A program made the translations under genes and the position numbers. From NCBI RefSeq assembly GCF_004365705.1, contig NZ_SOBN01000001.1:4016001-4080000 (forward strand): a DNA stretch of 64,000 bases, read 5' to 3'. The notes under the pieces were generated by a model. That model saw only the letters and a program-made list of their open reading frames with translations, was not told the origin of the DNA and made no database searches. Shown in pieces: positions 37,451-51,836 of the stretch (positions are counted from its first letter, which is position 1; each line of letters opens with the position of its first letter). Source of the stretch: Streptomyces sp. 846.5. GTDB taxonomy: Bacteria; Actinomycetota; Actinomycetes; Streptomycetales; Streptomycetaceae.

Positions 37451-37604
37451 CTTCACCCCCGCTGGGACATCTACGGACCTCTTGAAGGTAGCCAGATGCC
37501 CCCGAGCTGTCTATCCATGGTGTAACCAACGCCCCCCACCTGCGGCGATTCTGATGGTGCGCCAGGAAGTCCCGGCGCAGAACCAAGAGGTCCCTCCGAA
37601 CTGC

Positions 37605-37648: not shown

Positions 37649-37691
37649 GGCTTCGCCCCGATGCCGCTCCTCTGATCTTGGGAGATCAACC

Positions 37692-37967: not shown

Positions 37968-38167
37968 AGCGTCAGGTGATCTACGTCGAGTCCGCCCGCG
38001 CGGGCGGCTCCGGCGACGGCGAGGGTGCGAAGTGGGTTGCGCGGCTGGCTGCCGGCCTGGTGCTGTGGCAGTGCTGGCACCTCGGGTTGTGGGGATTCTC
38101 CACCGCAGCGGCCACGTACCTGGTGGTCCTGATCGTGCTGAAGGCACGGTCTGGGGGTGTGCGATGA
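37964..38167 (+). CDS. Small membrane protein of the transfer operon
   Basis: 67 residues with two hydrophobic segments (WVARLAAGLVLWQCWHLGLW; TAAATYLVVLIVLKA). ATGA overlaps at both ends couple it to its neighbours. Position and size recall the Spd spread proteins of Streptomyces plasmids, but there is no diagnostic motif. Confidence 0.65.
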   Translation: MKRQVIYVESARAGGSGDGEGAKWVARLAAGLVLWQCWHLGLWGFSTAAATYLVVLIVLKARSGGVR

Positions 38168-39039
38168 ACCGCACCGCTAAGGGCTTCCTGGTCGCCGGTC
38201 TGCTGGCCGTGGTCCTGATGGCGTTCCGGGTGTCGTGGAACGCGTTGCGGGACGTGGCCCACACGATCGGCGCGGACCACACCGCCGCCGTGGTCTACCC
38301 CCTGGTCGTGGACGGGCTGATGGCCCTCGCCCTGGTGGCAACCCTCGTCCTCCCGGACGAACCGCGCAAGAACGGGAAGGGCTCACCGCGCCGGTTCGCA
38401 CTGAATGTGCTCGCCGCCTACACCCTGGCCTCGCTGGTCCTCAACTACGTGCACGGGCTCACCGCACCCGACGGCGCCCGTATCCGACTGGCCGACTGGC
38501 CCCCCGCCAACTGGGCTCTGGTTCTGCTCGGCACCTCCCTGCCGGTCGGCTCCATCTTCTTCGGCTCCGACCTGGTCGCCAAGGTGCTCCACCACCGCCC
38601 CGACTCCGGCAATACGGGATCTTCTACCGCAGACCAGTCGATACCTGACCTGCCCCAGCCCACCCCGCCCGCGACCGAACCGTCGGTCTACCAGCTCGCC
38701 GACAACGCCCCGACCACCCCTATTGAGCCCGAGACAAACCCGACGCACCGCCCCCGACCGGCCACCGGCCCGATACCTGCCGCCGCCCGCACTCGGACCC
38801 CGACCCGCAGCACCGCCGAACTGCTCGTCGAGGCCCGTCGGGTTACCGCCGACTGGTCGGACGACCAGCTGTCGGGCGAGCGGATCCGCAAGGCCCTGCA
38901 CACCTCCGCCGCCAACGGCCGTTCGCTGCGCGATCTGCTCCAGCGCGAGCGTGCCCACGCCCGCCCCGGTCTGCACGTGGTCGAGGAAACCCAGCCCGCC
39001 CCCGAGGACGCGGGCGCCGTGCCCGCCGCCGCGAACTGA
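38164..39039 (+). CDS. DUF2637 family membrane protein (SpdB-like)
   Basis: 291 residues from ATG 38164. Four membrane helices in the first 150 residues, with the DUF2637 pattern VSWNALRDVAHTIGADHTAA, VVYPLVVDGLMALALVATLV, LNVLAAYTLASLVLNYVHGL. A Pro/Thr-rich linker follows, then a C-terminal helix-rich region with ELLVEARRVTADWSDDQLSG and RIRKALHTSAANGRSLRDLL, which looks like a small DNA-binding helix-turn-helix. Proteins of this type sit before tra in AICEs and are thought to help spread transferred DNA through the mycelium. Confidence 0.8.
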   Translation: MNRTAKGFLVAGLLAVVLMAFRVSWNALRDVAHTIGADHTAAVVYPLVVDGLMALALVATLVLPDEPRKNGKGSPRRFALNVLAAYTLASLVLNYVHGLTAPDGARIRLADWPPANWALVLLGTSLPVGSIFFGSDLVAKVLHHRPDSGNTGSSTADQSIPDLPQPTPPATEPSVYQLADNAPTTPIEPETNPTHRPRPATGPIPAAARTRTPTRSTAELLVEARRVTADWSDDQLSGERIRKALHTSAANGRSLRDLLQRERAHARPGLHVVEETQPAPEDAGAVPAAAN

Positions 39040-39053
39040 CCGGAGGAACCCCC

Positions 39054-39377
39054 GTGATGACGACCGAAACCGCTGCCCGCGACCAGGCCAACGCCGCCGG
39101 CGCTCTGCTCGCCCTGGTCACCCAGTTCCCCGACCTGCCCGCCGCCGACTTCGACATCACCACCGGTCGGGTGGAGACGGACCTGCGCATCAACGTCCAC
39201 AGGAACCCGTCCGGGTTCGAGCAGTGGCGCCAGGCCCTGGACCTGGACCCCGACACCGCCGACGGCTCCCACTTCCCGACGTTCCAGACGATCGAGATCC
39301 CCGGTACCTACGCGGGCATCCGGGTCCTGCTGGTCGGCTACCTGCCGCTGCCCGCCGAACCCGCCACAGCGGCTTGA
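39054..39377 (+). CDS. Hypothetical protein of the transfer operon
   Basis: 107 residues from GTG 39054, or ATG 39057. Soluble, acidic, with beta-rich stretches (FDITTGRVETDLRINVHRNP, IPGTYAGIRVLLVGYLP). It follows the DUF2637 gene with GGAGGA as ribosome-binding site. No recognised family. Confidence 0.7.
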   Translation: MMTTETAARDQANAAGALLALVTQFPDLPAADFDITTGRVETDLRINVHRNPSGFEQWRQALDLDPDTADGSHFPTFQTIEIPGTYAGIRVLLVGYLPLPAEPATAA

Positions 39378-39419
39378 CCATCCACCACCGTGCACAGCCA
39401 ACCGAGCGGAGGAACCGCC

Positions 39420-39692
39420 ATGTTCGTCAGCTTCCACCTGCACCCCGCCCTCGCGGGCAGCGTCGGCGTCGAGTGCAGCCCCTTCGGCCCGATGCTGGTC
39501 CTGGACTGTGAGGGCGTCAGCGCGGCCATCTTCACCCCGACCGTGGAGCACCCCGCCGACGCCGTGCCCTTCGCCCGCGCCCTGCACGAGGCCGCCGCCG
39601 AGTTCCTGGCCGCCGTCGAAGCCCACGCCATCGCCGACCTGGACCCCGAAAGCGGCACCGGCACCGGCACCGGGACTGACCGGGCCGCCTAG
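39420..39692 (+). CDS. Hypothetical protein of the transfer operon
   Basis: 90 residues from ATG 39420 with CGGAGGA upstream. Soluble; FVSFHLHPALAGSVGVECSP and LVLDCEGVSAAIFTPTVEHP, ending in a Gly/Thr repeat tail (GTGTGTGTD). No recognised family. Confidence 0.7.
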   Translation: MFVSFHLHPALAGSVGVECSPFGPMLVLDCEGVSAAIFTPTVEHPADAVPFARALHEAAAEFLAAVEAHAIADLDPESGTGTGTGTDRAA

Positions 39693-39789
39693 TTCTGCCG
39701 CCGGGGCACGTCACCGCCTGCCAGCAAACGCCGTGCCCCGGCACCCCTTCCCCGTACATCCCGCAGGAACATGAGAGAAGGAACCCCAA

Positions 39790-41991
39790 GTGAATCACCC
39801 GATGGATGACGGTGACCCGGAGCGCGAGCTGTTCGCGCGCCTGGAGGCCGACCTGAACACCCCCACCACCGGCGGGGAGCTGCTGGACCTGGGCAAGGCC
39901 GCCCGGGGTGAGCGCGGCAGCGAGGACCGGGCGGCCCTGGCCGCGCTGGACATCGACCCGGACGCCGCGCCGCCGATGATCGACGGCCCGGGACTGGTGG
40001 AGCCCTCGCTGCTGGAGAAGGTCAAGGCCGAGCGGCTGCGCCCGGTCATCCCCGCGTGGCTGCGCGAACGGGCGGAGTTCCAGAACGCCGCGAGGTGGCT
40101 GGCCCGCCACTACGGGCACAGCGCCGCGTTCCACGCGCTCCGCCTGCCGGTCTACACCGCCAAGCTGGTCGGCCGCGCCCCGCGCGGCGTTGGGCGGCTG
40201 CTGCGGCGGATGAGCCGCTGGGTCACCGACGCGGAGGCCGCCCCGCTGCGGGACTTCGCGGTGACCAAGGAGGACGCCGAGCTGTACCTGAAGCTGCTGC
40301 GGGCCCGCGACCACCGGGTCATGTGGCGCCGCTGGGTGCTCGGGCTGGCCTCCATGCTGGGGTTCGCGTTCCTGGCCGTGCTGCTGGTCATGACCCCGGA
40401 CTGGACCCACATGGCACTGCTGGCAGCCTCCGTCCTGGCCGCAGGCGTGGCCGGGGCCCCGGCCGACAAGCCCCTGATCACCCGCGCGGTCACCCGTCCG
40501 ACGGTGCAGAAGCTCACGTCGGAGATTGTCGAGCGCGCGCTGTCGGTGCTGGGCATCGCGGAGATCACCCGCGCGCTGAGCAAGGGCAGCAAGCTGGTGT
40601 TCACCGCACCCATCACCCGCGACGGCCCCGGCTGGCGCGCCGACGTGGAACTCCCCTTCGGGGTGACCACCACCGAGGTCATGGACAAGCGCGACAAGCT
40701 CGCCTCCGGCCTGCGGCGCCCGCTCGGGTGTGTGTGGCCCGAGCCGATGCCCGGCCAGCACCCCGGACACATGCTGCTGTGGGTCGGCGACCAGGACATG
40801 AACAAGACCAAGATGCCGCCCTGGCCGCTGCTCAAGGCCGGGACCGTGGACCTGTTCAAGCCCGCCGCGTTCGCCACCGACCAGCGCGGACGCTGGGTCG
40901 AGGTCACCTTGATGTACATCGCCGGGATCATCGGCGCCATCCCCCGCATGGGCAAGACCTACCTGCTCCGGCTGCTGCTGCTGGTCGCCGCCCTGGACCC
41001 CCGCGCCGAACTGCACACCTACGACCTGAAGGGCACCGGCGACCTGGACCCCGTGGGCGAGAAGGTCTCCCACCGCCACCGCGCCGGCGAGGAGGAAGAG
41101 GACATCCTCTACGCCCTGGCCGACATGCGCGAGGTCCAGGCCGAACTGCGGCGCCGCGCCAAGATGATCCGCTCCCTGCCCCGCGACATCTGCCCCGAGT
41201 CCAAGGTCACCACCGACCTGGCCTCCAAGAAGTCCCTCGGGCTGCACCCGATCGTCATCGGCGTGGACGAGTGCCAGAAGTGGTTCGAACACCCCAAGTA
41301 CGGCGCGGAGTTCGAAGAGATCTGCACCGACCTGGTCAAGCGGGGACCTGCCACCGGGATCGTGCTGCTGCTGGCCACCCAGCGCCCCGACGCCAAGTCC
41401 CTGCCCACCGGGATCAGCGCCAACGCCTCCATGCGGCTGTGCCTGAAGGTCATGGGCCACACCGAGAACGACATGGTCCTCGGTACCTCCGCGCACAAGA
41501 ACGGCATCCGCGCCACCACCTTCGCATGGGCCGACAAGGGCATCGCCTACTTCGTCGGCGAGGGCAGCGACGCCCGCATCATCCGCGCCGTTGAGGTCAA
41601 CGCCCCCACCGCCGAACTGGTCGCCACCCGCGGCCGGGTGGCCCGCGAACGCGCCGGGCTGCTGACCGGCTACGCCGCCGACGCCGACAGCACACCCACC
41701 GACACCACCCCCGGATACGACCTGCTCGCCGACGTTCAGGCCGTGGTCCCCGCCAACGAGGCCAAGGTCTGGTCCGAGACCGTCACCGCCCGCCTGGCGG
41801 AGCTGCGCCCCACCGTCTACGGCGGCTGGGCACCCGATCAGCTCGCCGCCGCGCTGAAGCCGCTTGGGGTGGCCACCGGACAGGTCTGGGGCACCACCGC
41901 CGACGGCAAGGGCGCCAACCGACGCGGCATCACCCGCGCCGACATCACCAAGGCAATCGCAGAGCGTGACGGAAAGCCCGCCGCGAGCTGA
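39790..41991 (+). CDS. FtsK/SpoIIIE-type conjugal DNA translocase (Tra)
   Basis: 733 residues. N-terminal soluble region, two membrane helices at about 180-225 (WVLGLASMLGFAFLAVLLVM; MALLAASVLAAGVAG), then the RecA-like motor. Walker A is near residue 378 in GAIPRMGKTYLLRLLLLVAA, Walker B near 497 in HPIVIGVDECQKWF, and LLATQRPDAKSLPTGIS is characteristic of FtsK-type Tra proteins. The C-terminal 60 residues (YGGWAPDQLAAALKPLG, RGITRADITKAIAERD) look like the winged helix that binds the clt repeats. Such proteins move double-stranded DNA from cell to cell, unlike relaxase-based conjugation. The candidate clt lies directly downstream. Confidence 0.93.
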   Translation: MNHPMDDGDPERELFARLEADLNTPTTGGELLDLGKAARGERGSEDRAALAALDIDPDAAPPMIDGPGLVEPSLLEKVKAERLRPVIPAWLRERAEFQNAARWLARHYGHSAAFHALRLPVYTAKLVGRAPRGVGRLLRRMSRWVTDAEAAPLRDFAVTKEDAELYLKLLRARDHRVMWRRWVLGLASMLGFAFLAVLLVMTPDWTHMALLAASVLAAGVAGAPADKPLITRAVTRPTVQKLTSEIVERALSVLGIAEITRALSKGSKLVFTAPITRDGPGWRADVELPFGVTTTEVMDKRDKLASGLRRPLGCVWPEPMPGQHPGHMLLWVGDQDMNKTKMPPWPLLKAGTVDLFKPAAFATDQRGRWVEVTLMYIAGIIGAIPRMGKTYLLRLLLLVAALDPRAELHTYDLKGTGDLDPVGEKVSHRHRAGEEEEDILYALADMREVQAELRRRAKMIRSLPRDICPESKVTTDLASKKSLGLHPIVIGVDECQKWFEHPKYGAEFEEICTDLVKRGPATGIVLLLATQRPDAKSLPTGISANASMRLCLKVMGHTENDMVLGTSAHKNGIRATTFAWADKGIAYFVGEGSDARIIRAVEVNAPTAELVATRGRVARERAGLLTGYAADADSTPTDTTPGYDLLADVQAVVPANEAKVWSETVTARLAELRPTVYGGWAPDQLAAALKPLGVATGQVWGTTADGKGANRRGITRADITKAIAERDGKPAAS

Positions 41992-42000
41992 CCGGAACGG

Positions 42001-42087
42001 GTGCTAGGTCTAGCAGCCCACCCCGCTAGACCTAGCACCCCCGCTAGCACCCCATATATCGCCTGATCAGGACGCTAGTACCTAGCG
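42001..42087. repeat. CTAG-rich repeat patch, candidate clt transfer locus
   Basis: Seven CTAG tetramers in 87 bp, each within GCTAG on one strand or the other. The first four form a perfect 14-bp hairpin, GTGCTAGGTCTAGC (42001-42014) with GCTAGACCTAGCAC (42025-42038). Then comes GCTAGCAC (42043-42050), a CTGATCAG palindrome (42063-42070) and CGCTAGTACCTAGCG (42073-42087). CTAG is normally scarce in Streptomyces DNA. The patch begins 10 bases after the tra stop, where Streptomyces elements often keep the clt repeats recognised by TraB. Confidence 0.65.
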
Positions 42088-42130
42088 CCCTCCCCCCAGC
42101 ACGGCCCAAAACCCGCCCGGGAGGCACCCC

Positions 42131-42388
42131 GTGACCCTGATCGCCGCCGCTATACCCCTCATCCTGCTCCTCACCCTCGGTTACCTCGCCGTATGCATGG
42201 CCAGCCCGTTCGCCCGCTGCCGCCGCTGCAACGGCATCGGCCACCACCTGGTGACCGACCGGCGCGGCAAGCCCCGCCGGGGCAAGGCCTGCCGCCACTG
42301 CCGCACCACCGGCCTGCGCATCCGCCCCGGACGCCACCTCATCAACCTCGCCAAACGCGTCCGCGCCGACGCCCGCCGCGCCAACTGA
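42131..42388 (+). CDS. Small membrane protein with DnaJ-like zinc cysteines
   Basis: 85 residues from GTG 42131. N-terminal membrane helix (LIAAAIPLILLLTLGYLAVC), then CRRCNGIGHH and CRHCRTTGLR, two CxxC(x)G motifs like those of the DnaJ zinc domain, in a strongly basic tail. Probably a membrane-anchored nucleic-acid-binding protein used in transfer; function is inferred from context. Confidence 0.7.
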   Translation: MTLIAAAIPLILLLTLGYLAVCMASPFARCRRCNGIGHHLVTDRRGKPRRGKACRHCRTTGLRIRPGRHLINLAKRVRADARRAN

Positions 42389-42426
42389 CCCGCCCCGCCG
42401 CCCGCCGACCCAAGGAGTTCCCCGCC

Positions 42427-42618
42427 ATGGCCGTGAACCTGTCCGCAGTCCTCGTCTTCGGCGCCGCCCTGCTGTTCATGCTGCGCGCCAGGACCCTCGG
42501 CGCCGGGGCCGCCCTGGTCGCCCTCCTCTTCGGCTTCTACCTCGCCCGCACCGGCGCCGCACCCCTGCTGTCCAGCGCCGTCAGCTCCGTCTTCACCGCC
42601 CTGTCCCACATCCACTGA
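42427..42618 (+). CDS. Small hydrophobic membrane protein (Spd-like)
   Basis: 63 residues from ATG 42427 with AAGGAG 10 bases upstream. Two hydrophobic segments (VNLSAVLVFGAALLFML; AGAALVALLFGFYLA) and a short C-terminus ending HIH. Resembles small Spd membrane proteins of Streptomyces plasmids in size and position. Confidence 0.68.
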   Translation: MAVNLSAVLVFGAALLFMLRARTLGAGAALVALLFGFYLARTGAAPLLSSAVSSVFTALSHIH

Positions 42619-42640
42619 CCCGCCGTCAGGAGACCCAACC

Positions 42641-43045
42641 GTGAACCCCATCCCCGACCAGAGCGCCCCGGTCACCGTCCTGTACGACGCCGACGGCCAC
42701 CCCCACTACGCCACCACCGCCGGACCCCTGGTCCGCTACCAGCCCGCACAGGTCCAGCCCGTGGTCTACCAGCCCACCCCCATGCCCACCACCAACCCCG
42801 GCGCGCAGCCCACCGGCTACAGCATCGGCCGGGACCCGGTGGCCGTACGGCTGCTGGCCGGCGGCATCGGACTGGGCGCGGCCGGAGTCGGCATCGGGTT
42901 CCTGCTCCAGGCCCTGGCCGCCGCCACCACCGCCCTCGCAGCCCTCGCCGCAGTCCTCGCCCTGGTCTACGTCCTGATCCACTCCGGCGGCGGCAGCGGC
43001 CGGGGTGGCGCGGTCAACATCCGCATCTCCAACCGCAACCGCTGA
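42641..43045 (+). CDS. Mobile element transfer protein, SpdD-like
   Basis: 134 residues. A Pro/Gln/Tyr-rich N-terminal half with repeated YQPxxxQPVVYQP elements, then two long hydrophobic helices (LLAGGIGLGAAGVGIGFLLQ; AAATTALAALAAVLALVYVL), then a Gly/Arg tail. This layout is typical of SpdC/SpdD-type proteins near tra genes. Likely a membrane partner in intramycelial spread. Confidence 0.75.
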   Translation: MNPIPDQSAPVTVLYDADGHPHYATTAGPLVRYQPAQVQPVVYQPTPMPTTNPGAQPTGYSIGRDPVAVRLLAGGIGLGAAGVGIGFLLQALAAATTALAALAAVLALVYVLIHSGGGSGRGGAVNIRISNRNR

Positions 43046-43209
43046 CCCGACCGGCCTGCCCCTTCGGCCGTGCCACCCGAACCGCCGCCCGCAACCCCGG
43101 GGTGGTCGGTGCGGGTGGTGCGGGGGACCGGCAGACCCGCACCCCGCCGCTCTCGCCCTCGTACCACGGCACTTGACCTGTTCCACCCCTGATGTCCTGG
43201 GAGGACACC

Positions 43210-43701
43210 GTGTCCGTCGGAGAAACCACCATCACCATCGTCGGGAACCTGACCGAGGACCCCGACCTGAAGTTCACCGCCGCCGGAGTGGCCGCGGCCC
43301 GCTTCACCGTCGCCTCCACCCCGCGCACCTACGACAAGACCACCGGCCAGTGGGTCGACGGCACCGGCATGTTCCTGCGCTGCACCGCCTGGCGCGAGCT
43401 GGCCGACCACGCCACCGAGTCCCTGTCCAAGGGCATGCGCGTCATCATCAGCGGCCGTCTGCGCCAGCACAACTGGAAGAACGACCAGGGCGAGAACCGC
43501 TCCATGCTCCAGGTCGAGGTCGACGAGATCGGCCCCTCCCTCCGCTGGGCCACCGCCAAGGTCACCAAGGCCAACCGCACCAACGGCGGCAACGGCTTCG
43601 GCGCCCCCGCGCAGACCGACCAGTGGGCCACCGGCACCCCCGCCCCCAGCCCCGCCACGGCCGGGGCCGGTAGCGGGTTCAGCGAGGAACCCCCGTTCTA
43701 G
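43210..43701 (+). CDS. ssb: Single-stranded DNA-binding protein
   Basis: 163 residues from GTG 43210 (GGGAGG 5 bases upstream); an ATG at 43192 is less well placed. OB fold with TITIVGNLTEDPDLKFTAAG, AAARFTVASTPRTYDKTTGQ, FLRCTAWRELADHATESLSK and GMRVIISGRLRQHNWKNDQG, all standard SSB segments. A Gly/Pro/Ala linker leads to the tip SEEPPF, the acidic protein-interaction tail. An element-borne copy supports autonomous replication before transfer. Confidence 0.94.
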   Translation: MSVGETTITIVGNLTEDPDLKFTAAGVAAARFTVASTPRTYDKTTGQWVDGTGMFLRCTAWRELADHATESLSKGMRVIISGRLRQHNWKNDQGENRSMLQVEVDEIGPSLRWATAKVTKANRTNGGNGFGAPAQTDQWATGTPAPSPATAGAGSGFSEEPPF

Positions 43702-43803
43702 CAGCTCTCTTTGGCCCGCAGCGGCCGGACTCACCCGGCAAGGTTCCCCGGCCGCTGCGGCCCTCCCGGCACCGATTCCAGACCAGGCAGGAGAACACCC
43801 ACC

Positions 43804-44493
43804 ATGCACCACGACACCGAACCCGCACACCCCATCGCCCCGACCCGGCTGCCCGCACCGGGCCCGTGGGAGAGCATCGCCGCCCTGGTGGCGTGGCTGG
43901 ACGCCCACAACGGCACCGGCCAGCAGGAGACCGCGCTGCGGCTGCTGAAGGTCACCGAGGAAGCCGGAGAGGCCGCCGCCGCCTACATCGGCGCCACCGG
44001 CCAGAATCCCCGCAAGGGCACCACCCACACCCGCGCCGACGTCGCCGACGAACTGTGCGATGTGATCGTGTCCGCCATGGTCGCCCTGCACTCCTTCTCC
44101 GACCATCCCCGCCACCACCTGGCGGCCAAGCTCGCCGCCGTCACCGACCGCGTGCTCAGCCAGGACACGGTGACCGTCGCCGAACTCCACGCCACCGGCC
44201 AGGTCCAGGGCGAGGTGGCCCTGTCCGGCACCGTCACCAGCATCGAACGGCACGTCAGCAACGCCGGGTACCCGTGGGCTGAGGTCCGCTTCACCGACAC
44301 CACCGGATCGATCCGGGTCACGTTCTTCCCCAAGCCCTGGCTGCAGTTGCAGAACATCGTCGCCGAGGGACTGTGCTGCACCGTCACCGGCCTGCTCAAC
44401 GCCGGGAACGGGGAGCTGACCCTGATCGGCCAGCGCGTCGGACCCGCCGCCCGACAGCCGTCCAGCGCTTCGGCCGTGGGGGGTGCGCGGTGA
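43804..44493 (+). CDS. MazG-like NTP pyrophosphohydrolase fused to an OB-fold domain
   Basis: 229 residues from ATG 43804. Residues 20-115 look like a MazG-type alpha-helical NTP-PPase: LRLLKVTEEAGEAAAAYIGA supplies the first acidic pair and DVADELCDVIVSAMVAL the second ExxD-type metal site. Residues 130-215 form an OB-fold nucleic-acid-binding domain (GEVALSGTVTSIERHV, WAEVRFTDTTGSIRVTFFP, LCCTVTGLLNAGNGELTLIG), like those of replication factors. The next gene, a cytosine methyltransferase, overlaps by GTGA. The fusion suggests hydrolysis of a nucleotide in association with DNA, but this is inference. Confidence 0.8.
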   Translation: MHHDTEPAHPIAPTRLPAPGPWESIAALVAWLDAHNGTGQQETALRLLKVTEEAGEAAAAYIGATGQNPRKGTTHTRADVADELCDVIVSAMVALHSFSDHPRHHLAAKLAAVTDRVLSQDTVTVAELHATGQVQGEVALSGTVTSIERHVSNAGYPWAEVRFTDTTGSIRVTFFPKPWLQLQNIVAEGLCCTVTGLLNAGNGELTLIGQRVGPAARQPSSASAVGGAR

Positions 44494-45983
44494 GCGCCCC
44501 GACCTCGGGTCACCTGCTGTGCGGGGCCGGCGGGGACTCCAAGGGCTTCGCCAACGCTGGTTTCGACGTGGCCGTGGGCGCGAACCACTGGGACCGGGCG
44601 ATCGAGACCCACGCGGCGAACTTCCCCGACGCCGAGCACCTGTGCGTGGACCTGGACCACTACGACATGCGCAAACTCCCCAAGACGGATGTTCTGGTGG
44701 GGTCGCCGATCTGCTACGAGGGCAGTCCCGCCGACGGCGTCGCGCGCCCCAAGGCACCCCCGACGCCGGGGCAGTTGGACCTGCTGGAGCAGGGCCCGAT
44801 TGCGCACGCGGCGTGGGAGCGCACCCGGGCGACCGCGTACGACATCCTGCGCGCGGCCGAGATCCACGACTACAAGGCGATCGTGTGCGAGAACGTGGTG
44901 CGGTTCGCCACCGCCTGGCCGCTGTTCCCCTGGTGGCTGACCGGGTTCGAGCAGTTGGGCTACCGCCACCAGGTGGTCTCCGCCAACGCCGCCCACGTCG
45001 GCGACCCCGGCAACGACCCCGCCAGCCAGTGGCGGGACCGGATCTTCATCGTCTTCACCAAGCTGGCCATGGACGCCCCGGACCTGCGGCTGTCGCCGCG
45101 CGCCTGGTGCCCCACCTGCGGGGTGGACGTGGACGCCGTGCAGGCGTGGCGCAACGGCCGCAAGATCGGCAAGTACCGGCAGCAGTACGACTACCGCTGC
45201 CCCAACTCCGCCTGCCGCCACCAGGTGGTGGAGCCCTACGTCAGCCCGGCCGCCGCCGTCATCGACTGGACCGACCTGGGCACCCGCATCGGCGACCGCC
45301 CCACCCTGGGCATGCGGCCCTTGGCCGCGAACACGGTCAAGAAGATCCGGCTGGGCCTGGACCGCTACCGCACCCCGACCGTGGTCACCGTCAACCACGA
45401 CGACCGGGGCGGGGACGGCCGCGCCTTCCCCGCCGCCGGTAGCCCGCTGCCCACCCGCACGCTGCGGATCGGCGACGGGGTGGCCGTGCCGCCGCTGCTG
45501 GTGCCCACCGGCGGGAGCTGGAACGACAGCGCGGTACCGGTGACGGTGCCGATGCGCACCCGCACCACCCGCGAGAGCGAGGGCGTGCTGATCCCCGGGG
45601 CGTTCATCACCGAGCACCGCGGCGGCGGCTCCACCACCCGCCCCGTCGCCGACCCCCTCGCGACCATCACCGCCGGCGGCAACCACCACGGCCTGGTCAT
45701 CCCCTACCGCAAAGGAAAGCCGACCACCACCGCCGACCCCCTGCACACCATCGCCACCCACGAGAGCGCCGCCCTCGCCGGGGCCGGAGCGGACCTGGCC
45801 GCGCTGGAGCTGGAGGAGTGCCGGTTCCGGATGCTGTCCCCGCGCGAACACCTGCGCGCCCAGCGCTTCACCGACGACTACATCGTCAAGGGCAACGTCG
45901 GCGAACAGACCGCGCAAGCGGGCAACGCCGTGCCCTGCAACGTCGCCCAGTGGATCGCCAGCAAACTCCTGGAGGTGCTGTGA
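44490..45983 (+). CDS. C5 cytosine DNA methyltransferase with zinc-ribbon insert
   Basis: 497 residues from GTG 44490. Motif I: HLLCGAGGDSKGFANAGFDV. Motif IV: GSPICYEGSPADG with catalytic Cys75, where the usual PPC is PIC. Motif VI: IVCENVVRFA. Motif VIII: DRIFIVFTK. A zinc ribbon (CPTCGVDVDAVQAW, then CPNSACRHQ) is inserted near 205-250, before a variable target-recognition region. Motif X: GNAVPCNVAQWIASKLL at the C-terminus. It would methylate element and host DNA. No restriction endonuclease is adjacent, so it is orphan, perhaps protecting incoming element DNA from host restriction. Confidence 0.88.
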   Translation: MSAPTSGHLLCGAGGDSKGFANAGFDVAVGANHWDRAIETHAANFPDAEHLCVDLDHYDMRKLPKTDVLVGSPICYEGSPADGVARPKAPPTPGQLDLLEQGPIAHAAWERTRATAYDILRAAEIHDYKAIVCENVVRFATAWPLFPWWLTGFEQLGYRHQVVSANAAHVGDPGNDPASQWRDRIFIVFTKLAMDAPDLRLSPRAWCPTCGVDVDAVQAWRNGRKIGKYRQQYDYRCPNSACRHQVVEPYVSPAAAVIDWTDLGTRIGDRPTLGMRPLAANTVKKIRLGLDRYRTPTVVTVNHDDRGGDGRAFPAAGSPLPTRTLRIGDGVAVPPLLVPTGGSWNDSAVPVTVPMRTRTTRESEGVLIPGAFITEHRGGGSTTRPVADPLATITAGGNHHGLVIPYRKGKPTTTADPLHTIATHESAALAGAGADLAALELEECRFRMLSPREHLRAQRFTDDYIVKGNVGEQTAQAGNAVPCNVAQWIASKLLEVL

Positions 45984-46336
45984 GCATCCCCGGACCCGTC
46001 GGCGAACTCCCCCTGTGGGAAGCCGTCATGAACACCGCCGCCTACACCTGCCAGTGCACCGGCCAGTGCGGACGCTCCCACACCAAGACCGGCAAGCGCT
46101 GCGACCGCACCCACGGCGCCCTGGCCGCCGTCCACGGCGGACGCATCCTGCTCCTGGCCGCACCCGCCGACCCCACCGCCATGACCCAGCCCACCCACCG
46201 GCTGGTCACCCTGCCCGCGTCGGCACTCGCGGCGTGGTGCCCGGCCTGCCACGACGGCGCCCGCACCCGCGCCACCAAACAGCAACGCGCCACCACCCCG
46301 CCCCCGCCCGACATCGACACCCTGTTCACCCTCTAG
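45980..46336 (+). CDS. Small Cys/His-rich protein
   Basis: 118 residues from GTG 45980, overlapping the methyltransferase stop (GTGA) with GGAGG upstream. The middle carries TCQCTGQCGRSHTKTGKRCD, and AWCPACHDGARTR follows later, a likely zinc site. The pattern is seen in small actinomycete element proteins; function unknown. Confidence 0.68.
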   Translation: MSIPGPVGELPLWEAVMNTAAYTCQCTGQCGRSHTKTGKRCDRTHGALAAVHGGRILLLAAPADPTAMTQPTHRLVTLPASALAAWCPACHDGARTRATKQQRATTPPPPDIDTLFTL

Positions 46337-46358
46337 CCCCGGGAAGAAGCACCCGCCC

Positions 46359-46640
46359 GTGAGCCTGAAGACCTTCCCCGCGCACACCCTGCACTGCGAC
46401 GTATGCGGCCAGGAACTCACCGACCCCGTCAACGACCTGCCGTGGTGGTTCACCGACTTCACCGAGGCCCGCCTGTGCGCGCTGGGAGCCGGGTGGATCG
46501 CCACCGCCGACCAGTTCGCCATCTGCCCCGCACCCGACGACGCCCACCGCGACGCCGTCACCGCCCTGCTGCCCCCCGAGCCCGTGTTCGAGGTCCCCGG
46601 ACAGCTCAGCCTCGACACCGACCCCGAAACGCCCGCCTGA
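46359..46640 (+). CDS. Small protein with one CxxC motif
   Basis: 93 residues from GTG 46359. LHCDVCGQELTDPVNDLPWW near the N-terminus and an acidic C-terminus (LSLDTDPETPA). Soluble. Third cysteine-motif protein in this operon. No recognised family. Confidence 0.65.
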   Translation: MSLKTFPAHTLHCDVCGQELTDPVNDLPWWFTDFTEARLCALGAGWIATADQFAICPAPDDAHRDAVTALLPPEPVFEVPGQLSLDTDPETPA

Positions 46641-46735
46641 GCCTCCCTCAGCACCACCCCAGTACACGGCCGGGCGGGCGAGACCCCGACTCCGCCCGCC
46701 CGGCCGCACCAACCCCCGAAAGGACACCCCTGCTC

Positions 46736-47608
46736 ATGTCCGAGCTGCTGAACGCCGCCCTGGCCTGCGCCGCGCGCGGCTGGCACGTCTTCCTGCTGAT
46801 CCCCGGCGGCAAGCGCCCCGCCATCAAGAACTGGGACCAGCGCGCCACCACCGACCCCGCCGTCATCACCCACGGCTGGACCAACGGCGCCTACAACATC
46901 GGCATCGCCTGCGGCCCCTCCCACCTGCTGGTGGTCGACCTGGACACCCCCAAGCACCCCGGCGACACCCCGCCCCCGCCCTGGCACGACCAGGACGTGC
47001 ACACCGGCGCCGACGTCCTCGCCCACCTGGCCACAGACCAGGACCCCGGATGGCGCGAGACGTTCACCGTGGCCACCCCCAGCGGCGGCACCCACCTGTA
47101 CTACCAGGCACCCGCCGGCCGGACCTACCGCAACACCACCGGCACCCTCGGATGGAAGATCGACACCCGCGCCGCCGGAGGCCTGGTCGTCGCCCCCGGA
47201 AGCCAAACAGCCAAAGGCCCCTACACCGTGCTCAACGACGCCCCACCGGCGCCGCTGCCGCACTGGCTGGCCGACCTGCTGGCACCGGCCCCGCTGCGGC
47301 CCTCAGGGCCGCTGACGGTGCCGCTGCTGCGCGGCAGCGACCGGCGCACCCGCTACCTGAACGCCGCCATCACCCGCAGCATCACCGCCGTCCTGACCTC
47401 CCCCGAGCAGCGGCACAACGCCTGCCTGTTCGGCGCCGCCGCCTCACTGGGGGAGCTGATCGCCGGGGGCGAGCTGACCGAGTCCGAGGTGTTCCCCGCG
47501 CTGATGGACGCCGCCCGCGCGGTTGGCCAGGGCGAGGGTGAGGCCGCGCGCACCATCCGCTCCGGGTTCCGCCACGGCGCCCAGCGCCCGCGCACCCTGG
47601 CCGCCTGA
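46736..47608 (+). CDS. Bifunctional DNA primase/polymerase (prim-pol)
   Basis: 290 residues from ATG 46736. Prim-pol AEP fold: ACAARGWHVFLLIPGGKRPA at the start, the metal-binding LLVVDLDTPKHPG near residue 62, FTVATPSGGTHLYYQAPAG and IDTRAAGGLVVAPGSQTAKG. The C-terminal 90 residues are helical. In AICEs this protein works with a helicase to replicate the excised circle. That helicase partner lies downstream but is separated by the IS110 insertion. Both proteins are complete. Confidence 0.9.
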   Translation: MSELLNAALACAARGWHVFLLIPGGKRPAIKNWDQRATTDPAVITHGWTNGAYNIGIACGPSHLLVVDLDTPKHPGDTPPPPWHDQDVHTGADVLAHLATDQDPGWRETFTVATPSGGTHLYYQAPAGRTYRNTTGTLGWKIDTRAAGGLVVAPGSQTAKGPYTVLNDAPPAPLPHWLADLLAPAPLRPSGPLTVPLLRGSDRRTRYLNAAITRSITAVLTSPEQRHNACLFGAAASLGELIAGGELTESEVFPALMDAARAVGQGEGEAARTIRSGFRHGAQRPRTLAA

Positions 47609-47644
47609 TTCGAAAATCCCCCGCTCCGTGACCGTTTCCGCTGT

Positions 47645-48883
47645 TCAGAGCACTCCGATGGGTTGGAGGTTGACTTGGTAGCCGAGTTGGTTGAGTTGGC
47701 TGATGAGCCGTCGGGTCGCTCTGGTCTTGCCGGTGCGTTCGAGGAAGTAGTCGCCGCCGAGGTCGGCGTACTCGGCATCGTTGGTGAACATGTGCCAGAT
47801 GGCGACGAGGATGGAGTGCTCCAGAGCGACAAGGGCTCTCTTCTTGCCGCGGCGTCCGACCAGGCGCCGGTATCGGGAGGCGAGGTAGGTGTCCTTGGTG
47901 CGGGAGGCGGCGACGGCAGCCTGTCCGAGGGCGGCCTTGAGCCAGGGGTCGCCGTGCCGGGTCTTCCCGCTGCTGCTCTTGCCGGCCGATTCGTGGTTGC
48001 CGGGGCAGACGCCGGCCCAGGACGCCAGATCGCCGGCGGTGGGGAACCGCTCCATCTGGGCCCCGATCTCGGCCAGGATCACCTCGGCGGCGCGGGTGCC
48101 CACTCCGGGGATCGTGATCAGCAGGTCGATGCGGCGGCGAAAGGGCCGCACCTGCGCGTCGATCCGCTCGCTCAGCCGGTTCTCCATCGCCGTGCAGGCG
48201 TCGATCCGGTCGAGCATGGCCCGCAGCAAGAACGCGTGGTGGTCGGTGAAGTTGCCGGTCAGTGCCTCGACGAGGTCGGCGGTCTTGCGGCGCATGCTGC
48301 CCAGCGCCAGGTCCGCGAGCCGTCCGGGGTCACGTTCCCCGCCGATCAGGGCCTCCAGCATGGCCCGGGCCGACTTGCCCGTCAGGTCGGAGACCACGCT
48401 GGACAGCTTGATCCCGGAGTCCTCCAGCAGCTTCTCCGTCCGCTGGATCTCGCGGGTGCGCTCCCGGATGACCTCGGTGCGGTAGCGGGTCAGGTCCCGC
48501 AGCTGCCGGATCGGCTCCGGGGGCACGAAGCTGGCGCGGACCAGCCCGTACTCGACCAGCCGGGCAATCCACTCGGAGTCCTTCACGTCGGTCTTGCGGC
48601 CGGGCACCGACTTCATGTGCCGGGCGTTCAGCAGCCAGCACTCGATGTCGTGCTCCAGCAGGTAGAACACCGGCTTCCAGTACACGCCGGTGGCTTCCAT
48701 GCCGACCACGGTCACGCCCTCGGCCAGCAGCCAGTCCCGCATCGCCAGCAGTCCGCTGGTGACCGCGGGGAAGGTGCGGACCTCGCTGCGGCGCCGCTTC
48801 CCGGTGCTGGGCGCCCTCACGCACACCTTCACGTCGACCTTGCTGATGTCGATCCCCGCACACCGTTCGTGGATCACGTCCAT
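47645..48883 (-). CDS. IS110 family transposase (DEDD recombinase)
   Basis: 412 residues, full length. N-terminal RuvC-like DEDD domain: CAGIDISKVDVKVCVRAP, TVVGMEATGVYWKPVFYLL, and KSVPGRKTDVKDSEWIARL. C-terminal Tnp20 domain with TIPGVGTRAAEVILAEIGAQ and SWAGVCPGNHESAGKSSSGK, where the catalytic Ser lies, then RHGDPWLKAALGQAAVAASR. These enzymes recombine DNA guided by a bridge RNA encoded at the element end. No frameshift, so possibly active. Confidence 0.95.
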   Translation of the reverse strand: MDVIHERCAGIDISKVDVKVCVRAPSTGKRRRSEVRTFPAVTSGLLAMRDWLLAEGVTVVGMEATGVYWKPVFYLLEHDIECWLLNARHMKSVPGRKTDVKDSEWIARLVEYGLVRASFVPPEPIRQLRDLTRYRTEVIRERTREIQRTEKLLEDSGIKLSSVVSDLTGKSARAMLEALIGGERDPGRLADLALGSMRRKTADLVEALTGNFTDHHAFLLRAMLDRIDACTAMENRLSERIDAQVRPFRRRIDLLITIPGVGTRAAEVILAEIGAQMERFPTAGDLASWAGVCPGNHESAGKSSSGKTRHGDPWLKAALGQAAVAASRTKDTYLASRYRRLVGRRGKKRALVALEHSILVAIWHMFTNDAEYADLGGDYFLERTGKTRATRRLISQLNQLGYQVNLQPIGVL

Positions 48884-49120
48884 CGCCCCGGCACCTCCCT
48901 CCCTCGACAGCCGCGAGCGCGTGGCCGTCCAGCGGGGGTCCGCAGGCGTAAGAGTCTGATTCGCGTGCTCGGAGCAACATTTCCGGGTGCCTGTCGGTGG
49001 ACCCCCAGCGTCCTACTGAACCGCGGGCTCGGAACGCGCCAAGGCGAAACGACGTCGGCCAGACGGCCACCAACCAGATTTTCACCCACTCAGGGTCTGC
49101 CCGTAAGGGCTTCGGACTAC
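48884..49120 (-). ncRNA. Candidate bridge RNA region of the IS110 element
   Basis: The noncoding 5' flank of the transposase is where IS110-group elements encode the bridge RNA. The stretch has self-complementary parts, for example GGGGGTCC (48934-48941) with GGACCCCC (48999-49006). No conserved structure was computed, and the target- and donor-binding loops were not assigned. Location follows the family rule; the RNA itself is inferred. Confidence 0.4.
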
Positions 49121-49164
49121 TGAACCCCCGTCACCCCTGCTCCACTGCACCTGAGGGAGGTTCC

Positions 49165-50238
49165 GTGACTCCAACGCCCCCGCCACACCTGCGCGTCATC
49201 AACCCCGACCAGGCCCCCGAGGACGACCAGCCCCCGCAGGACCAGGGGCCGATGGCGTCCGGCTTCCCCACCCTGTGGACAGCCGACCAGCTCATGGGCA
49301 CTGTCTTCCCCGAACCCCGGTGGGCGGTGCCCGGCATCCTGGCCGAAGGGGTCACCCTGCTGACCGGACCGCCCAAGGTCGGCAAGTCCTGGCTCTCCCT
49401 GGGACTGGGGCTGACCGTGGCGGCGGGCGGCACCGCGTTCGGCACGATCCCCGTCACCGCAGGCCCCGTCCTCTACCTGGCGTTGGAGGACACCCCGCGT
49501 CGGCTCCAGAACCGGATGGGCAAGCTCCTTCAGGGCAAGCCCGCCCCGGGGGCGCTGACGCTGGTGACGACCTGCCCGCCGCTGCCGCAGGGCGGCGTGC
49601 AGGCCATCGCCGGCTGGCTCACCGAGCACCCCGACGCCCGCATGGTCGTCGTGGACGTCTTCGCCAAGGTGCGCGGACAGGCAGCCCCCGGATCTTCCGC
49701 CTATGACGCCGACTACACCGCCGTGTCGCAGGTCAAGCGGCTGGCCGACCACTTCGGGGTGGCCCTGGTCCTAGTCCACCACGTCCGCAAAGCCGCCTCT
49801 GACGACTTCCTCGCGGAAGTCTCCGGTACCAACGGCCTGGCGGGTGCAGCCGACACCACCATCGTCCTCAAGCGCGCCCGCGGCCAGGCCGACGGCGTCC
49901 TGCACATCACCGGCCGCGACGTGGACGAGACCGAACACGCCTTGGCATTCCAGCCCGAGACCGGGCACTGGCGGCTGCTGCCCGGCGCCGCCGCCGAGCA
50001 CACCATCGCCGACACCCGCGCCACCATCCTGCGCCACGTCCGCACCCACCCCGGTCAGCGCCCCAAGGACATCGCCGACGCCACCGGCCTGGACTACGAA
50101 CTCACCCGCAAGACCTGCTCACGCATGGCCGCCGACGGCCAACTCAAAGCCGCCAACGGCACCTACACCACCGCCCTGGGACACCCGGACACCCCCGGAA
50201 CTGTCCCAGCTGTCCCACTGTCCCAGCACACGCCCTGA
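49165..50238 (+). CDS. AAA/RecA-fold ATPase, replicative helicase-like (RepA-like)
   Basis: 357 residues from GTG 49165 with GGGAGG just upstream. RecA-like core: Walker A in TLLTGPPKVGKSWLSLGL near residue 65, Walker B in ARMVVVDVFAKVRG near 165, and VALVLVHHVRKAASDDFLAE near 205. It resembles hexameric RepA/RSF1010-type helicases. A C-terminal winged-helix segment (TILRHVRTHPGQRPKDIADA, LTRKTCSRMAADGQLK) follows. Works with the prim-pol in element replication. The 3' end contains part of the operator array that precedes xis. Confidence 0.85.
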   Translation: MTPTPPPHLRVINPDQAPEDDQPPQDQGPMASGFPTLWTADQLMGTVFPEPRWAVPGILAEGVTLLTGPPKVGKSWLSLGLGLTVAAGGTAFGTIPVTAGPVLYLALEDTPRRLQNRMGKLLQGKPAPGALTLVTTCPPLPQGGVQAIAGWLTEHPDARMVVVDVFAKVRGQAAPGSSAYDADYTAVSQVKRLADHFGVALVLVHHVRKAASDDFLAEVSGTNGLAGAADTTIVLKRARGQADGVLHITGRDVDETEHALAFQPETGHWRLLPGAAAEHTIADTRATILRHVRTHPGQRPKDIADATGLDYELTRKTCSRMAADGQLKAANGTYTTALGHPDTPGTVPAVPLSQHTP

Positions 50239-50280
50239 CCAGCACCGACGTCCCCGATGTGCCGGGACAGCACTGGGACA
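50176..50280. promoter_or_regulatory. Operator array of TGGGACA half-sites before xis-int
   Basis: Six half-sites: CTGGGACA (50176-50183), then CTGTCCCA at 50201, 50210 and 50218 (9 and 8 bp apart), CCGGGACAG (50262-50270) and CTGGGACA (50273-50280). The array mirrors the one at 34951-35047. The first half-sites lie inside the end of the helicase gene; the rest are just upstream of xis. Confidence 0.75.
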
Positions 50281-50322
50281 CCCCGCCCTAGCAACCGCTT
50301 CACACCTGGGGAGAAGCCCGCG

Positions 50323-50505
50323 ATGACCACCGCCGAAGCCCTGACCGTGCCCGAAGTCATGTCCGCCCTTCGACTGAGCCGTAGCAAGGTCTACGACCTG
50401 CTCCGCGCCCGTGAACTGCCCAGCTTCCACATCGGCCGGAGCCGTCGGATCGCCGCCGACGCCCTGGCCGAGTACATCCGCCGCCAGTCCGCTGAGGAGA
50501 ACTGA
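50323..50505 (+). CDS. xis: Excisionase (MerR/Xis-type HTH)
   Basis: 60 residues. TVPEVMSALRLSRSKVYDLL, RARELPSFHIGRSRRIAADA and LAEYIRRQ form the small winged helix of AICE excisionases. The ATG at 50323 has GGGGAGAAG upstream. It ends 3 bases before int. Xis biases the integrase toward excision. The preceding operator array suggests repression in the integrated state. Confidence 0.9.
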   Translation: MTTAEALTVPEVMSALRLSRSKVYDLLRARELPSFHIGRSRRIAADALAEYIRRQSAEEN

Positions 50506-50508
50506 TCC

Positions 50509-51660
50509 ATGGCCAAGCGCAGGCCGAACGGGGCGGGGAGCATCACCCGCCGCAAGGACGGCACGTACCACGGGCGCGTCTACGTGACCACGACCGAGGG
50601 CGTGCCGAAGCGGATTTCCCGCTACGGCAAGACCTATGACGAGGTAGCCGAGAAGATCGCCAAACTGCTGGAACTGGAGTCCAAGGGGGTGCCGACCCCC
50701 GACAAGACGTGGAAGATCGGCCCCTTCCTGCTCTACTGGCTGGCCGAGATCGTGAAGCCCACCCAGCGGCCGACCACCTACGACAAGTACGAGTCGATGG
50801 TGCGGCTCTACCTCATCCCCAAGCTGGGAAAGAAGTCGCTGACCAGACTGAACGTCAAGGACGTCCGGACCTTCCTGCGGCAGATGACCGCCGACCAGAC
50901 GGGCGCGTCCACCATCCAGGAGTGCATGAAGGTGCTCCGCAACGCCCTGAACAGCGCCATGCGGGAGGAACTGCTGCTCCGCAATGTGGTGACGCTGGTC
51001 GGCATCCCCTCGGCCGAGTCGAAGGAGGTCATCCCCTGGTCCGCTGCGGAGGCCATCGCCTTCCTGCGGTCGGCCCGTCCGCACCGGCTGTACGCCGCTT
51101 TCGTGCTGGCCCTGGTGCTGGGCCTGCGGCGCGGTGAGCTGCTGGGGCTGCGCTGGATCGACCTGGACCTTGGCCAGGGCGTGGCGCACCCGCGCAAGCA
51201 GGTGCAGCGGCAGAAGGGCAAGGGCCTGGTCCACGTGGACCTGAAGACCAAGGCGTCCAAGGGTGCGCTGCCGCTCCCGCTGTTCTGCGTGGAGGCGCTG
51301 GGGGAGCGGCGCCGGCTGCTGGAGTTGGAGCGGGCCAAGGCCGGGGAGAAGTGGACGGATCTGGACCTGGTCTTCGGCACCGAGACCGGTGGCCTGTATG
51401 ACCCTGATCACTTCTCGCAGTGCTTCCAGCGGAGAGTCAAGCGCTCCGCGCAGCGAAGGGTGCGGTTGCACGACACCCGGCACACCTGCGGGAGCCTGCT
51501 CGCATGGCTCGGGGTCCACCCGAACGACGCGATGAAGATCCTGAGGCACAGTCAGATTCAGACCACGCTGGCGATCTACACCCACGTCACGACGGAGACC
51601 CAGCGGGCCGCCGCCGCCAAGATCAGCGCCCAGTTGCGGGACGGCATGGGGGGTCGCTGA
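50509..51660 (+). CDS. int: Tyrosine site-specific integrase
   Basis: 383 residues. N-terminal basic arm-binding domain (SITRRKDGTYHGRVYVTTTE), SAM-like core-binding domain at about 80-165 (YESMVRLYLIPKLGKKSLTR), and the catalytic domain from about 180. Catalytic residues: Arg in LGLRRGELLGLRW near 206, HxxR in LHDTRHTCGSLLAWLG near 320-323, His in KILRHSQIQTTLAIY near 346, and the nucleophile Tyr near 357 in IYTHV. It recombines attP with the 3' end of tRNA-Ile, about 100 bp downstream. Intact, with no frameshift. Confidence 0.96.
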   Translation: MAKRRPNGAGSITRRKDGTYHGRVYVTTTEGVPKRISRYGKTYDEVAEKIAKLLELESKGVPTPDKTWKIGPFLLYWLAEIVKPTQRPTTYDKYESMVRLYLIPKLGKKSLTRLNVKDVRTFLRQMTADQTGASTIQECMKVLRNALNSAMREELLLRNVVTLVGIPSAESKEVIPWSAAEAIAFLRSARPHRLYAAFVLALVLGLRRGELLGLRWIDLDLGQGVAHPRKQVQRQKGKGLVHVDLKTKASKGALPLPLFCVEALGERRRLLELERAKAGEKWTDLDLVFGTETGGLYDPDHFSQCFQRRVKRSAQRRVRLHDTRHTCGSLLAWLGVHPNDAMKILRHSQIQTTLAIYTHVTTETQRAAAAKISAQLRDGMGGR

Positions 51661-51724
51661 TCGCGGGGATATGGATGGCAATTGGATGGCTGGCGTAAAC
51701 AATGGGGGTAGAGGGCACAAAGAA

Positions 51725-51755
51725 CGCCCCGGAAGGGCTACCTTCCGGGGCGTTT
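51725..51755. terminator. Intrinsic terminator between int and tRNA-Ile
   Basis: CGCCCCGGAAGG (51725-51736) pairs with CCTTCCGGGGCG (51741-51752) around GCTA and is followed by TTT. It lies between convergent int and tRNA-Ile and can stop both. The element supplies it, since it is on the attP side. Confidence 0.88.
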
Positions 51756-51759
51756 GCGC

Positions 51760-51836
51760 TGGTGGACCTAGGAGGACTTGAACCTCCGGCCTCTTCCTTA
51801 TCAGGGAAGCGCTCTAACCGTCTGAGCTATAGGTCC
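51760..51836 (-). tRNA. tRNA-Ile (anticodon GAT), 3' half supplied by the element
   Basis: 77 nt including an encoded CCA. Acceptor GGACCTA (from 51836) pairs with TAGGTCC; D arm TAGCTCAGACGGTTAGAGC; anticodon loop CTGATAA reads GAT; T arm GGAGGTTCAAGTCCTCC. The 44 bases nearest int duplicate 31986-32029, so integration rebuilt a functional gene. The terminal A of the CCA is present here but not in the left copy. Confidence 0.97.
51761..51804. repeat. att site, right (int-proximal)
   Basis: 44 bp identical to 31986-32029; covers the tRNA-Ile segment from the 3' CC to the anticodon stem. Crossover must lie within it. The typical tRNA-targeting AICE arrangement places int next to this copy. 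Confidence 0.95.

Follow-up and report, generated by a model that had tools for sequence, protein, structure and literature searches.

A predicted fusion of a MazG-type domain to a DnaE-type OB domain in the transfer-replication region of a Streptomyces integrative element

The stretch of DNA analyzed here (the window) comprises 64,000 nucleotides of Streptomyces sp. 846.5 (contig NZ_SOBN01000001.1, positions 4,016,001 to 4,080,000 of the forward strand) and holds a 19.8-kb actinomycete integrative and conjugative element (AICE) whose edges are 44-bp perfect direct repeats. Within this element lie the two genes that are our subject. One encodes a protein that we call MazG-OB, in which a predicted MazG-type domain is followed by an OB fold, and the other encodes an orphan C5-cytosine DNA methyltransferase. 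A first-pass annotation, made from the letters alone, had read the two genes as a possible DNA-modification or anti-restriction unit. The features concerned are as follows, in positions of the window.

31986 to 51804, no strand: AICE, about 19.8 kb, with direct repeats at 31986-32029 and 51761-51804
43804 to 44493, forward strand: MazG-OB fusion protein, 229 residues (open reading frame, Pfam, and structure models)
43861 to 44157, forward strand: predicted MazG-type all-alpha NTP pyrophosphohydrolase domain, residues about 20 to 118 (motif, profile, and fold)
44158 to 44451, forward strand: predicted DnaE-type OB-fold domain, with the OB fold at residues about 138 to 211 (PF01336, profile, and Foldseek)
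44490 to 45983, forward strand: orphan C5-cytosine DNA methyltransferase, 497 residues, GTG start (PF00145, 1.9e-23; phrog_116, 5.9e-47)
44703 to 44714, forward strand: motif IV catalytic loop SPIC of the methyltransferase (alignment of its family)
45108 to 45215, forward strand: zinc-ribbon insert of the methyltransferase, C207, C210, C237, and C242 (Cys conservation in the alignment)

An AGGAG lies ∼10 bases upstream of the MazG-OB ATG, and the four bases GTGA are common to the MazG-OB stop and the GTG start of the methyltransferase. The methyltransferase stop overlaps in turn with the start of the next gene, that of the small protein P0003; the three genes are chained stop to start. The fused frame looks coding along its full length because the GC contents at codon positions 1, 2, and 3 are 0.75, 0.51, and 0.92 in the MazG part and 0.66, 0.54, and 0.92 in the OB part.

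The N-terminal part of MazG-OB carries a metal motif with E52, E53, and E56 as EE..E and E83 and D86 as E..D. We aligned the window's sequence with 103 relatives (104 sequences, 99 distinct), most of them 100 to 130 residues long by our own choice of start. E52, E56, E83, and D86 were conserved in 100% of the alignment and E53 in 99%, and the loop G66-Q-N-P-R-K-G72 (GQNPRKG) was kept at 93 to 100%. By itself, the window protein scored 16.1 bits against PRA-PH, and its MazG domain alone scored 18.5, where the cut-off is 21.3. Among 39 aligned members of the family, Pfam (E ≤ 0.01) returned PRA-PH for 20 and MazG for 11, and one relative (L069) scored above the PRA-PH cut-off. A 39-sequence profile matched Bacillus MazG (5ie9, 1.3e-5), YpjD (2gta, 9.4e-4), and iMazG (2q73, 0.0036), and its matches to MazZ (7ody, 0.3) and RS21-C6/DCTPP1 (0.39) were not significant. 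AlphaFold modeled helices at residues 21-36, 40-65, 77-98, and 102-120 with a pLDDT of 91 to 98. The first 16 rows returned by VIA-align were all MazG, HisE, iMazG, RS21-C6/DCTPP1, or DR2231 structures at Z scores of 7.0 to 8.6 (next row, 6.7), values that helical bundles can reach by chance and that are to be read together with the profile matches. Two marks of the superfamily, the EExxE...ExxD motif and, in the model, the four-helix fold, are present. On this family evidence (the motif in 104 sequences, the profile, and the fold), the most likely fold of the N-terminal domain is that of MazG, with the metal site kept. The helical domain with two acidic metal sites that the first-pass annotation had described is thereby upheld, and the first of the two objections that it had foreseen, an N-terminal domain that does not fold as MazG, is not borne out by the structure model and the profiles.

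The C-terminal part of the protein matched PF01336 at 29.8 bits (cut-off, 27). Full-length DnaE models were the top NCBIfam matches of MazG-OB, far below their cut-offs, as expected of a single domain. A four-sequence OB profile placed Mycobacterium tuberculosis DnaE (7pu7) first with an E value of 6.7e-14, and Foldseek with a model of the OB part alone also placed 7pu7 first (5.2e-7), followed by the OB folds of RPA, SSB, PolC, and tRNA synthetases. All strands were kept in this OB-only model, in the order strand-strand-strand-helix-strand-strand, with core block means of 86 to 90. The domain is 38% identical to the host's own DnaE-like frame and 40 to 45% identical to free-standing small OB proteins in L006/L127 and L024. 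At E ≤ 1e-6, OB matches occurred in 64 of 150 genomes of the family, mostly in frames of ∼1,150 to 1,650 residues (DnaE), with a few in shorter frames of 183, 247, 282, 384, and 410 residues, the last of which may be a cut DnaE. Of two OB-only scans of viral contigs, the first returned nothing and the second only one, already identified, prophage. As judged by these comparisons and models, MazG-OB carries an OB domain of the kind found in DnaE (Pol III alpha), and by analogy this domain probably binds single-stranded DNA. The joining of an OB fold to the MazG domain in one 229-residue protein, another reading of the first-pass annotation, is confirmed by PF01336 and the OB-only model. In a Kitasatospora plasmid (L170:6950-8022), a DnaE-type OB protein ends on the very base at which a gene annotated as "Pycsar system effector family protein" begins.

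The MazG domain alone matched 112 of the 150 family genomes. When the MazG and OB parts were searched separately in these genomes, a single frame with both was found only in the window's own genome; in one other genome (G002), the MazG and OB matches share a contig and are separated by 5.8 kb. The fusion did not recur in 79 genome-contig loci (by a scan requiring an exact 8-residue match), in 24 viral loci, or in 61 plasmid and 11 phage records (where no place covers 80% of the query). A whole-protein search of 394 genomes gave no fusion among the matches listed, which are a mixture of MazG and DnaE matches in 315 of the 394. Divergent fusions, or fusions in other bacterial families, could escape these searches. 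The hunt for further fusions that the first-pass annotation had proposed thus yielded none beyond the window's genome (79 loci, 24 viral loci, and 150 genomes). That annotation knew of no described system with this pair, and we likewise found no description of the fusion in the literature searched, a search outside which most subscription journals fall.

The nearest element is that of Streptacidiphilus carbonis (L005; L084 is the same element), in which the methyltransferase is 95.6% and the MazG domain 82% identical to those of the window. The S. carbonis MazG gene has the same stop-start overlap with the methyltransferase gene and is unfused; it has no OB domain, and its tail at the point of divergence is unrelated and contains cysteines. 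At the DNA level, identity between the two elements is 92% as far as about codon 100 of the MazG gene; the sequences then differ, and from the methyltransferase start identity is again 92%. Identity of 92% on both sides of the divergent tail indicates, as far as sequence can tell, that the tail was replaced by an exchange inside one gene. Between the two elements, the methyltransferase had a dN/dS of 0.15 and the MazG core one of 0.28, which suggests that both are under purifying selection; for MazG the sample is small (10 synonymous differences and 9 others). A second MazG-like gene of the host genome, unfused and 52% identical, lies outside the element (G000:C1:2779286-2779579; L002, L131).

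The surrounding genes of the AICE are as follows.

39790 to 41991, forward strand: TraB/FtsK-like AICE transfer protein (NCBIfam matches below cut-off)
43192 to 43701, forward strand: SSB (PF00436, 1.2e-25; NCBIfam PRK07772, 203.9 bits versus a cut-off of 194)
43713 to 43763, forward strand: GC-rich hairpin in the gap between SSB and MazG-OB (RNA fold of 43702-43785)
45980 to 46336, forward strand: P0003, small Cys/His-rich protein, 118 residues (GTGA overlap with the methyltransferase stop)
46359 to 46640, forward strand: small Cys-containing protein, 93 residues (only subthreshold matches, DUF6011 and DUF983)
46652 to 47608, forward strand: Prim-Pol replication protein of the AICE (PF09250, 2.5e-43)
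49177 to 50238, forward strand: AAA_25 ATPase of the replication module (PF13481, 1.3e-35)
50509 to 51660, forward strand: tyrosine integrase of the AICE (PF00589, 3.1e-15)

The right repeat copy falls within a tRNA-Ile gene (51760-51836), and the integrase gene and a helix-turn-helix (Xis-like) gene adjoin the repeat on this side. An integrase with tRNA-bounded direct repeats and a Prim-Pol/Rep replication protein, two of the marks by which an AICE is recognized, are both found here. The TraB/FtsK-like protein matched no Pfam family at E ≤ 1, and its NCBIfam matches to plasmid_TraB (1.8e-5) and EccCa (1.2e-6) are both far under the cut-offs. With the transfer protein at this subthreshold level, the AICE setting supposed by the first-pass annotation is borne out, and the SSB upstream of MazG-OB and the Cys-rich small proteins downstream of the methyltransferase lie where it had placed them. 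The SSB end and the MazG-OB start are separated by 102 bases; within this gap, the RNA fold of 43702-43785, with the hairpin, has −38.5 kcal/mol and a z of −2.99 and was equaled by 2 of 200 shuffles. A transposase-like gene (47645-48883, reverse strand), which we take to be IS110-like, sits inside the replication module between the Prim-Pol and AAA_25 genes. Near the left repeat lie a CBASS pair on the reverse strand (a CD-NTase at 33697-34698 and a Cap15-type effector at 33009-33689) and, beside it, an AbiV-like HEPN protein on the forward strand (32309-32905); together these form a defense cargo module of the AICE.

We asked where MazG genes of this kind stand in other elements by checking 103 MazG loci, 19 of which carry AICE markers. 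Because these markers are defined by the window's own TraB, Prim-Pol, and AAA_25 proteins, and the neighbor counts use the window's proteins as queries, the figures are biased to close relatives. Three of the 103 loci (L080, L081, and L083) gave no MazG match and were omitted when adjacency was listed. The MazG gene lay between TraB and Prim-Pol on the same strand in 11 of 11 genome-contig loci with both, and downstream of TraB in all 17 genome-contig loci with TraB. The MazG match ended 36 to 136 bp before the SSB match in four of eight loci with an SSB relative. In a FastTree phylogeny, the window's MazG domain grouped with 13 AICE-marked sequences (clade support, 0.865), and the enclosing clade (0.805) held 16 of the 19 AICE-marked sequences and one viral sequence. 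These positions, together with the clade, indicate at the level of sequence that this MazG gene lineage goes with the AICE transfer-replication module, and the fusion to a DnaE-type OB domain echoes SSB, a frequent neighbor of MazG. In the literature searched, we found no paper that treats AICEs and MazG together and no discussion of a MazG-type lineage with a set place in this module; an AICE survey (PMC3218068) does not use the word "MazG" in its main text.

The explanation that we favor, with our confidence evenly balanced between its being right and its being wrong, is that MazG-OB is a (d)NTP pyrophosphohydrolase of an AICE lineage that acquired a DnaE-type OB domain and acts near replicating element DNA, with the methyltransferase as separate cargo. 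Whereas the data themselves show both domains, an intact metal motif, the AICE setting, the placement between TraB and Prim-Pol, and the tail difference, we infer the catalysis and the tethering by the OB domain. A DnaE-type OB domain would have taken the place of the C-terminal tail of a MazG gene by an exchange internal to that gene. As in its superfamily, whose members cleave (d)NTPs, the MazG domain would cleave (d)NTPs to NMP and PPi, and the OB domain may keep the protein close to the replication machinery or bound to single-stranded DNA. The local nucleotide pool would then be cleaned or trimmed during replication of the element, before or after transfer. The substrate might be a pyrimidine dNTP, or else a dNTP that is damaged or modified, a guess guided by characterized relatives: mycobacterial MazG is reported to degrade 5-OH-dCTP (PMC3855555), a cyanophage MazG to prefer dGTP and dCTP (PMC6850273), and the MazG-like DCTPP1 to act on dCTP and 5-methyl-dCTP (PMC4491611). 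The downstream C5 methyltransferase would be orphan cargo that moves separately and is coupled by stop-start overlap to the preceding gene. A natural fusion makes action at single-stranded or replicating DNA directly testable.

Several points weigh against this explanation, besides the caution on Z scores and the marker definition that favors relatives. The full-length model placed the OB domain with low confidence (block means of 43 to 71), and confidence was good only when the domain was predicted alone, from four sequences; as a Foldseek query, the full-length model found nothing at E ≤ 0.001. Of the 19 MazG genes with AICE markers, three are not in the window's clade, and several AICEs are without MazG in the stretch examined (eight of eight methyltransferase loci taken with wide flanks). 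The fusion is a single case, so that the OB domain could be a passenger. The literature searched gave no substrate or DNA-binding study of this MazG subfamily.

A passenger OB domain is the core of the alternative that survives best, although we think it unlikely: the fusion is a chance product of recombination in which MazG works as in its unfused relatives and the OB domain is a neutral passenger. The single occurrence speaks for it. The C-terminal tails of this MazG family differ in length and content, and the S. carbonis element has its unrelated Cys-containing tail at the very same point. However, the OB-only model retains every strand, the domain keeps residues common to DnaE and free-standing OB proteins, and its GC content of 0.92 at third codon positions is coding-like.

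The methyltransferase, which the first-pass annotation had rightly called orphan (no recognized endonuclease adjoins it), matched PF00145 at 83.9 bits (cut-off, 22) and fits only this wider Pfam family: it reached 67.3 bits with the NCBIfam dcm model TIGR00675, where the cut-off is 100.65. An alignment with 46 relatives (47 sequences, 46 distinct) showed, in order, the C5 motifs that we take to be I, IV (Cys), VI (ENV), and VIII (QxRxR), followed by a C-terminal GNAV. The catalytic Cys75 was found in all 46 aligned sequences having a letter there, and ENV with QWRDR or QSRDR in all 47. The PIC loop and the zinc ribbon noted in the first pass are both real, and neither is a peculiarity of this enzyme. 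Motif IV reads PIC, VIC, IIC, PEC, or PSC among the relatives, the residue before the catalytic Cys being mostly Ile, with Glu or Ser in distant relatives, and the ribbon cysteines C207, C210, C237, and C242 are present in 47, 46, 47, and 41 of the 47 sequences. We therefore rejected both a special catalytic loop and a special zinc insert, each variant being family-wide. Matches to the methyltransferase occurred in 83 of the 394 genomes at E ≤ 1e-20 and in 235 phage and 191 plasmid records at E ≤ 1e-5; on these matches, the enzyme is one of a large family spread over actinobacterial phages, plasmids, and AICEs. It probably marks DNA independently of MazG-OB.

In the first-pass reading, the methyltransferase would mark element DNA, MazG-OB would adjust a nucleotide pool such as modified dCTP, and the two could form a DNA-modification or anti-restriction unit that protects the element on entry. 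We find this improbable. The GTGA overlap of the two genes speaks for it, as does the reported action of DCTPP1 on 5-methyl-dCTP. If the two genes had evolved as a unit, they should travel together. To examine this, we took the 29 best-scoring methyltransferase loci of other genomes (83 genomes had a match in all), each with flanks of 1.5 kb. A MazG gene was found in 1 of the 29, namely that of S. carbonis (L084), the nearest relative, and in none of eight of these loci taken with flanks of 6 to 10 kb; a ninth wide locus (L130), picked since it has both genes, has MazG 4.3 kb from the methyltransferase. The gene in front of the methyltransferase is swapped between elements. It encodes a GGDEF-like protein with a 4-base overlap in L119 (GGDEF by resemblance to the L005 protein), another small protein with a 4-base overlap in L118, zinc-ribbon-like proteins in L120 to L122 (by eye), and, in a Streptomyces plasmid (L113), an ASCH protein whose annotated gene overlaps by 4 bases. 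We therefore rejected MazG and methyltransferase as a single conserved unit: the unit proposed in the first pass did not hold, and the joint conservation of the pair, on which it had staked its idea, is largely absent. The methyltransferase looks instead like separately moving orphan cargo, judged from these loci, that is coupled stop to start to whichever gene precedes it. In sister AICEs, GGDEF proteins occupy the position in front of the methyltransferase or one close to it (L005:5348-5998, by Pfam, and L119 upstream of 8162).

A looser link does exist between the two gene types. With flanks of 5 to 6 kb, an HMM of this type of methyltransferase, for which some of the same loci had served as input, matched 12 of the 79 genome and 5 of the 24 viral MazG loci, and PF00145 matched 8 of the 24 viral MazG records (7 over the cut-off), each of which has a match 0.5 to 7 kb from MazG. 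This loose co-location is the best support for the first-pass idea. However, MazG and C5 methyltransferase genes are both typical of compact early modules in phages and AICEs, so loose co-location is expected and is no proof of joint function. The three ingredients of the window are also present as separate genes in a prophage (L127:7594-11838, on the same contig as L006 and like the IMG/VR record L152), where a stretch of ∼4 kb contains a MazG-like gene, a free DnaE-type OB, and, next to each other, two short C5-methyltransferase-like genes (called by eye, with one PF00145 match below the cut-off in the L152 record); this neighborhood counts in favor of a modification unit. Against a protective role, the Streptomyces type IV enzyme ScoMcrA is reported to cut Dcm-methylated DNA (PMC3009677). 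By analogy with this cleavage, 5-methylcytosine is not simply protective in streptomycetes and may attract type IV restriction. We give very little credence to a narrower idea, in which MazG-OB at the element's fork destroys 5-methyl-dCTP, or another modified dCTP, from the turnover of C5-methylated DNA. If true, the methyl mark would be laid only by the methyltransferase and never by misincorporation, and the modification system would have its own nucleotide proofreader. What the loci do show is that two genes apparently coupled in one genome are mostly uncoupled across elements.

The MazG domain could also destroy a defense or alarm nucleotide, for example in tuning the element's CBASS genes, an idea made attractive by the CD-NTase, the Cap15-type effector, and the AbiV-like HEPN protein on the same element. 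We regard this as highly improbable. The defense genes are 9 kb off, at the opposite end of the element, whereas AICE-marked MazG genes stay near the transfer and replication genes; PADLOC gave no match for MazG-OB, and the cyanophage MazG is reported neither to bind nor to hydrolyze (p)ppGpp (PMC6850273).

Least probable of all is that the methyltransferase and the overlapping P0003 are a restriction-modification pair, with P0003 an HNH-type nuclease: in 7 of the 29 loci, P0003 relatives are found no more than 1.5 kb from the methyltransferase, and two distant ones look HNH-like by eye, but P0003 is, by eye, without their HNH-like His and Asn, and the Pfam HNH families matched none of the family members scanned, these two included. 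P0003 itself matched no Pfam family at E ≤ 1. Its family has a Cys/His pattern common to the distant relatives (L036:1335-1697 and L024:5223-5936), whose HNH identity was not confirmed by Pfam.

With MazG-OB read as an AICE-lineage pyrophosphohydrolase carrying an acquired OB domain, only the fusion itself is new; the domain types and the element type are already known. The methyltransferase resembles the phrog_116-type C5 methyltransferases of actinophages, plasmids, and AICEs over its full length, with the same motif IV variants and the same zinc ribbon, and beyond the neighbor gene we found nothing in which it differs from this family. A "C5-MT" is also listed among Frankia AICE genes in a figure legend of Ghinet et al. 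2011 (PMC3218068), a likeness by name. For the OB domain, the known counterparts are DnaE (Pol III alpha), in which it lies within the polymerase and not behind a MazG domain, and the free-standing OB proteins of actinobacterial prophages and plasmids, which are of the same OB type with no MazG domain in front. The MazG domain shares the four-helix fold and EExxE...ExxD with the all-alpha NTP pyrophosphohydrolases (MazG, iMazG, HisE, DCTPP1/RS21-C6, and DR2231); the titles of the matched MazG-type structures mention no OB domain. Within the same subfamily, its counterparts are gp3 of the Streptomyces phages WheeHeim and Forthebois and, on Streptomyces plasmids, the "MazG-like family protein"; unlike MazG-OB, these stand alone. 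Compared with the wider superfamily, MazG-OB belongs to an actinobacterial subfamily of its own, with the GQNPRKG loop, and has an OB domain behind the MazG domain.

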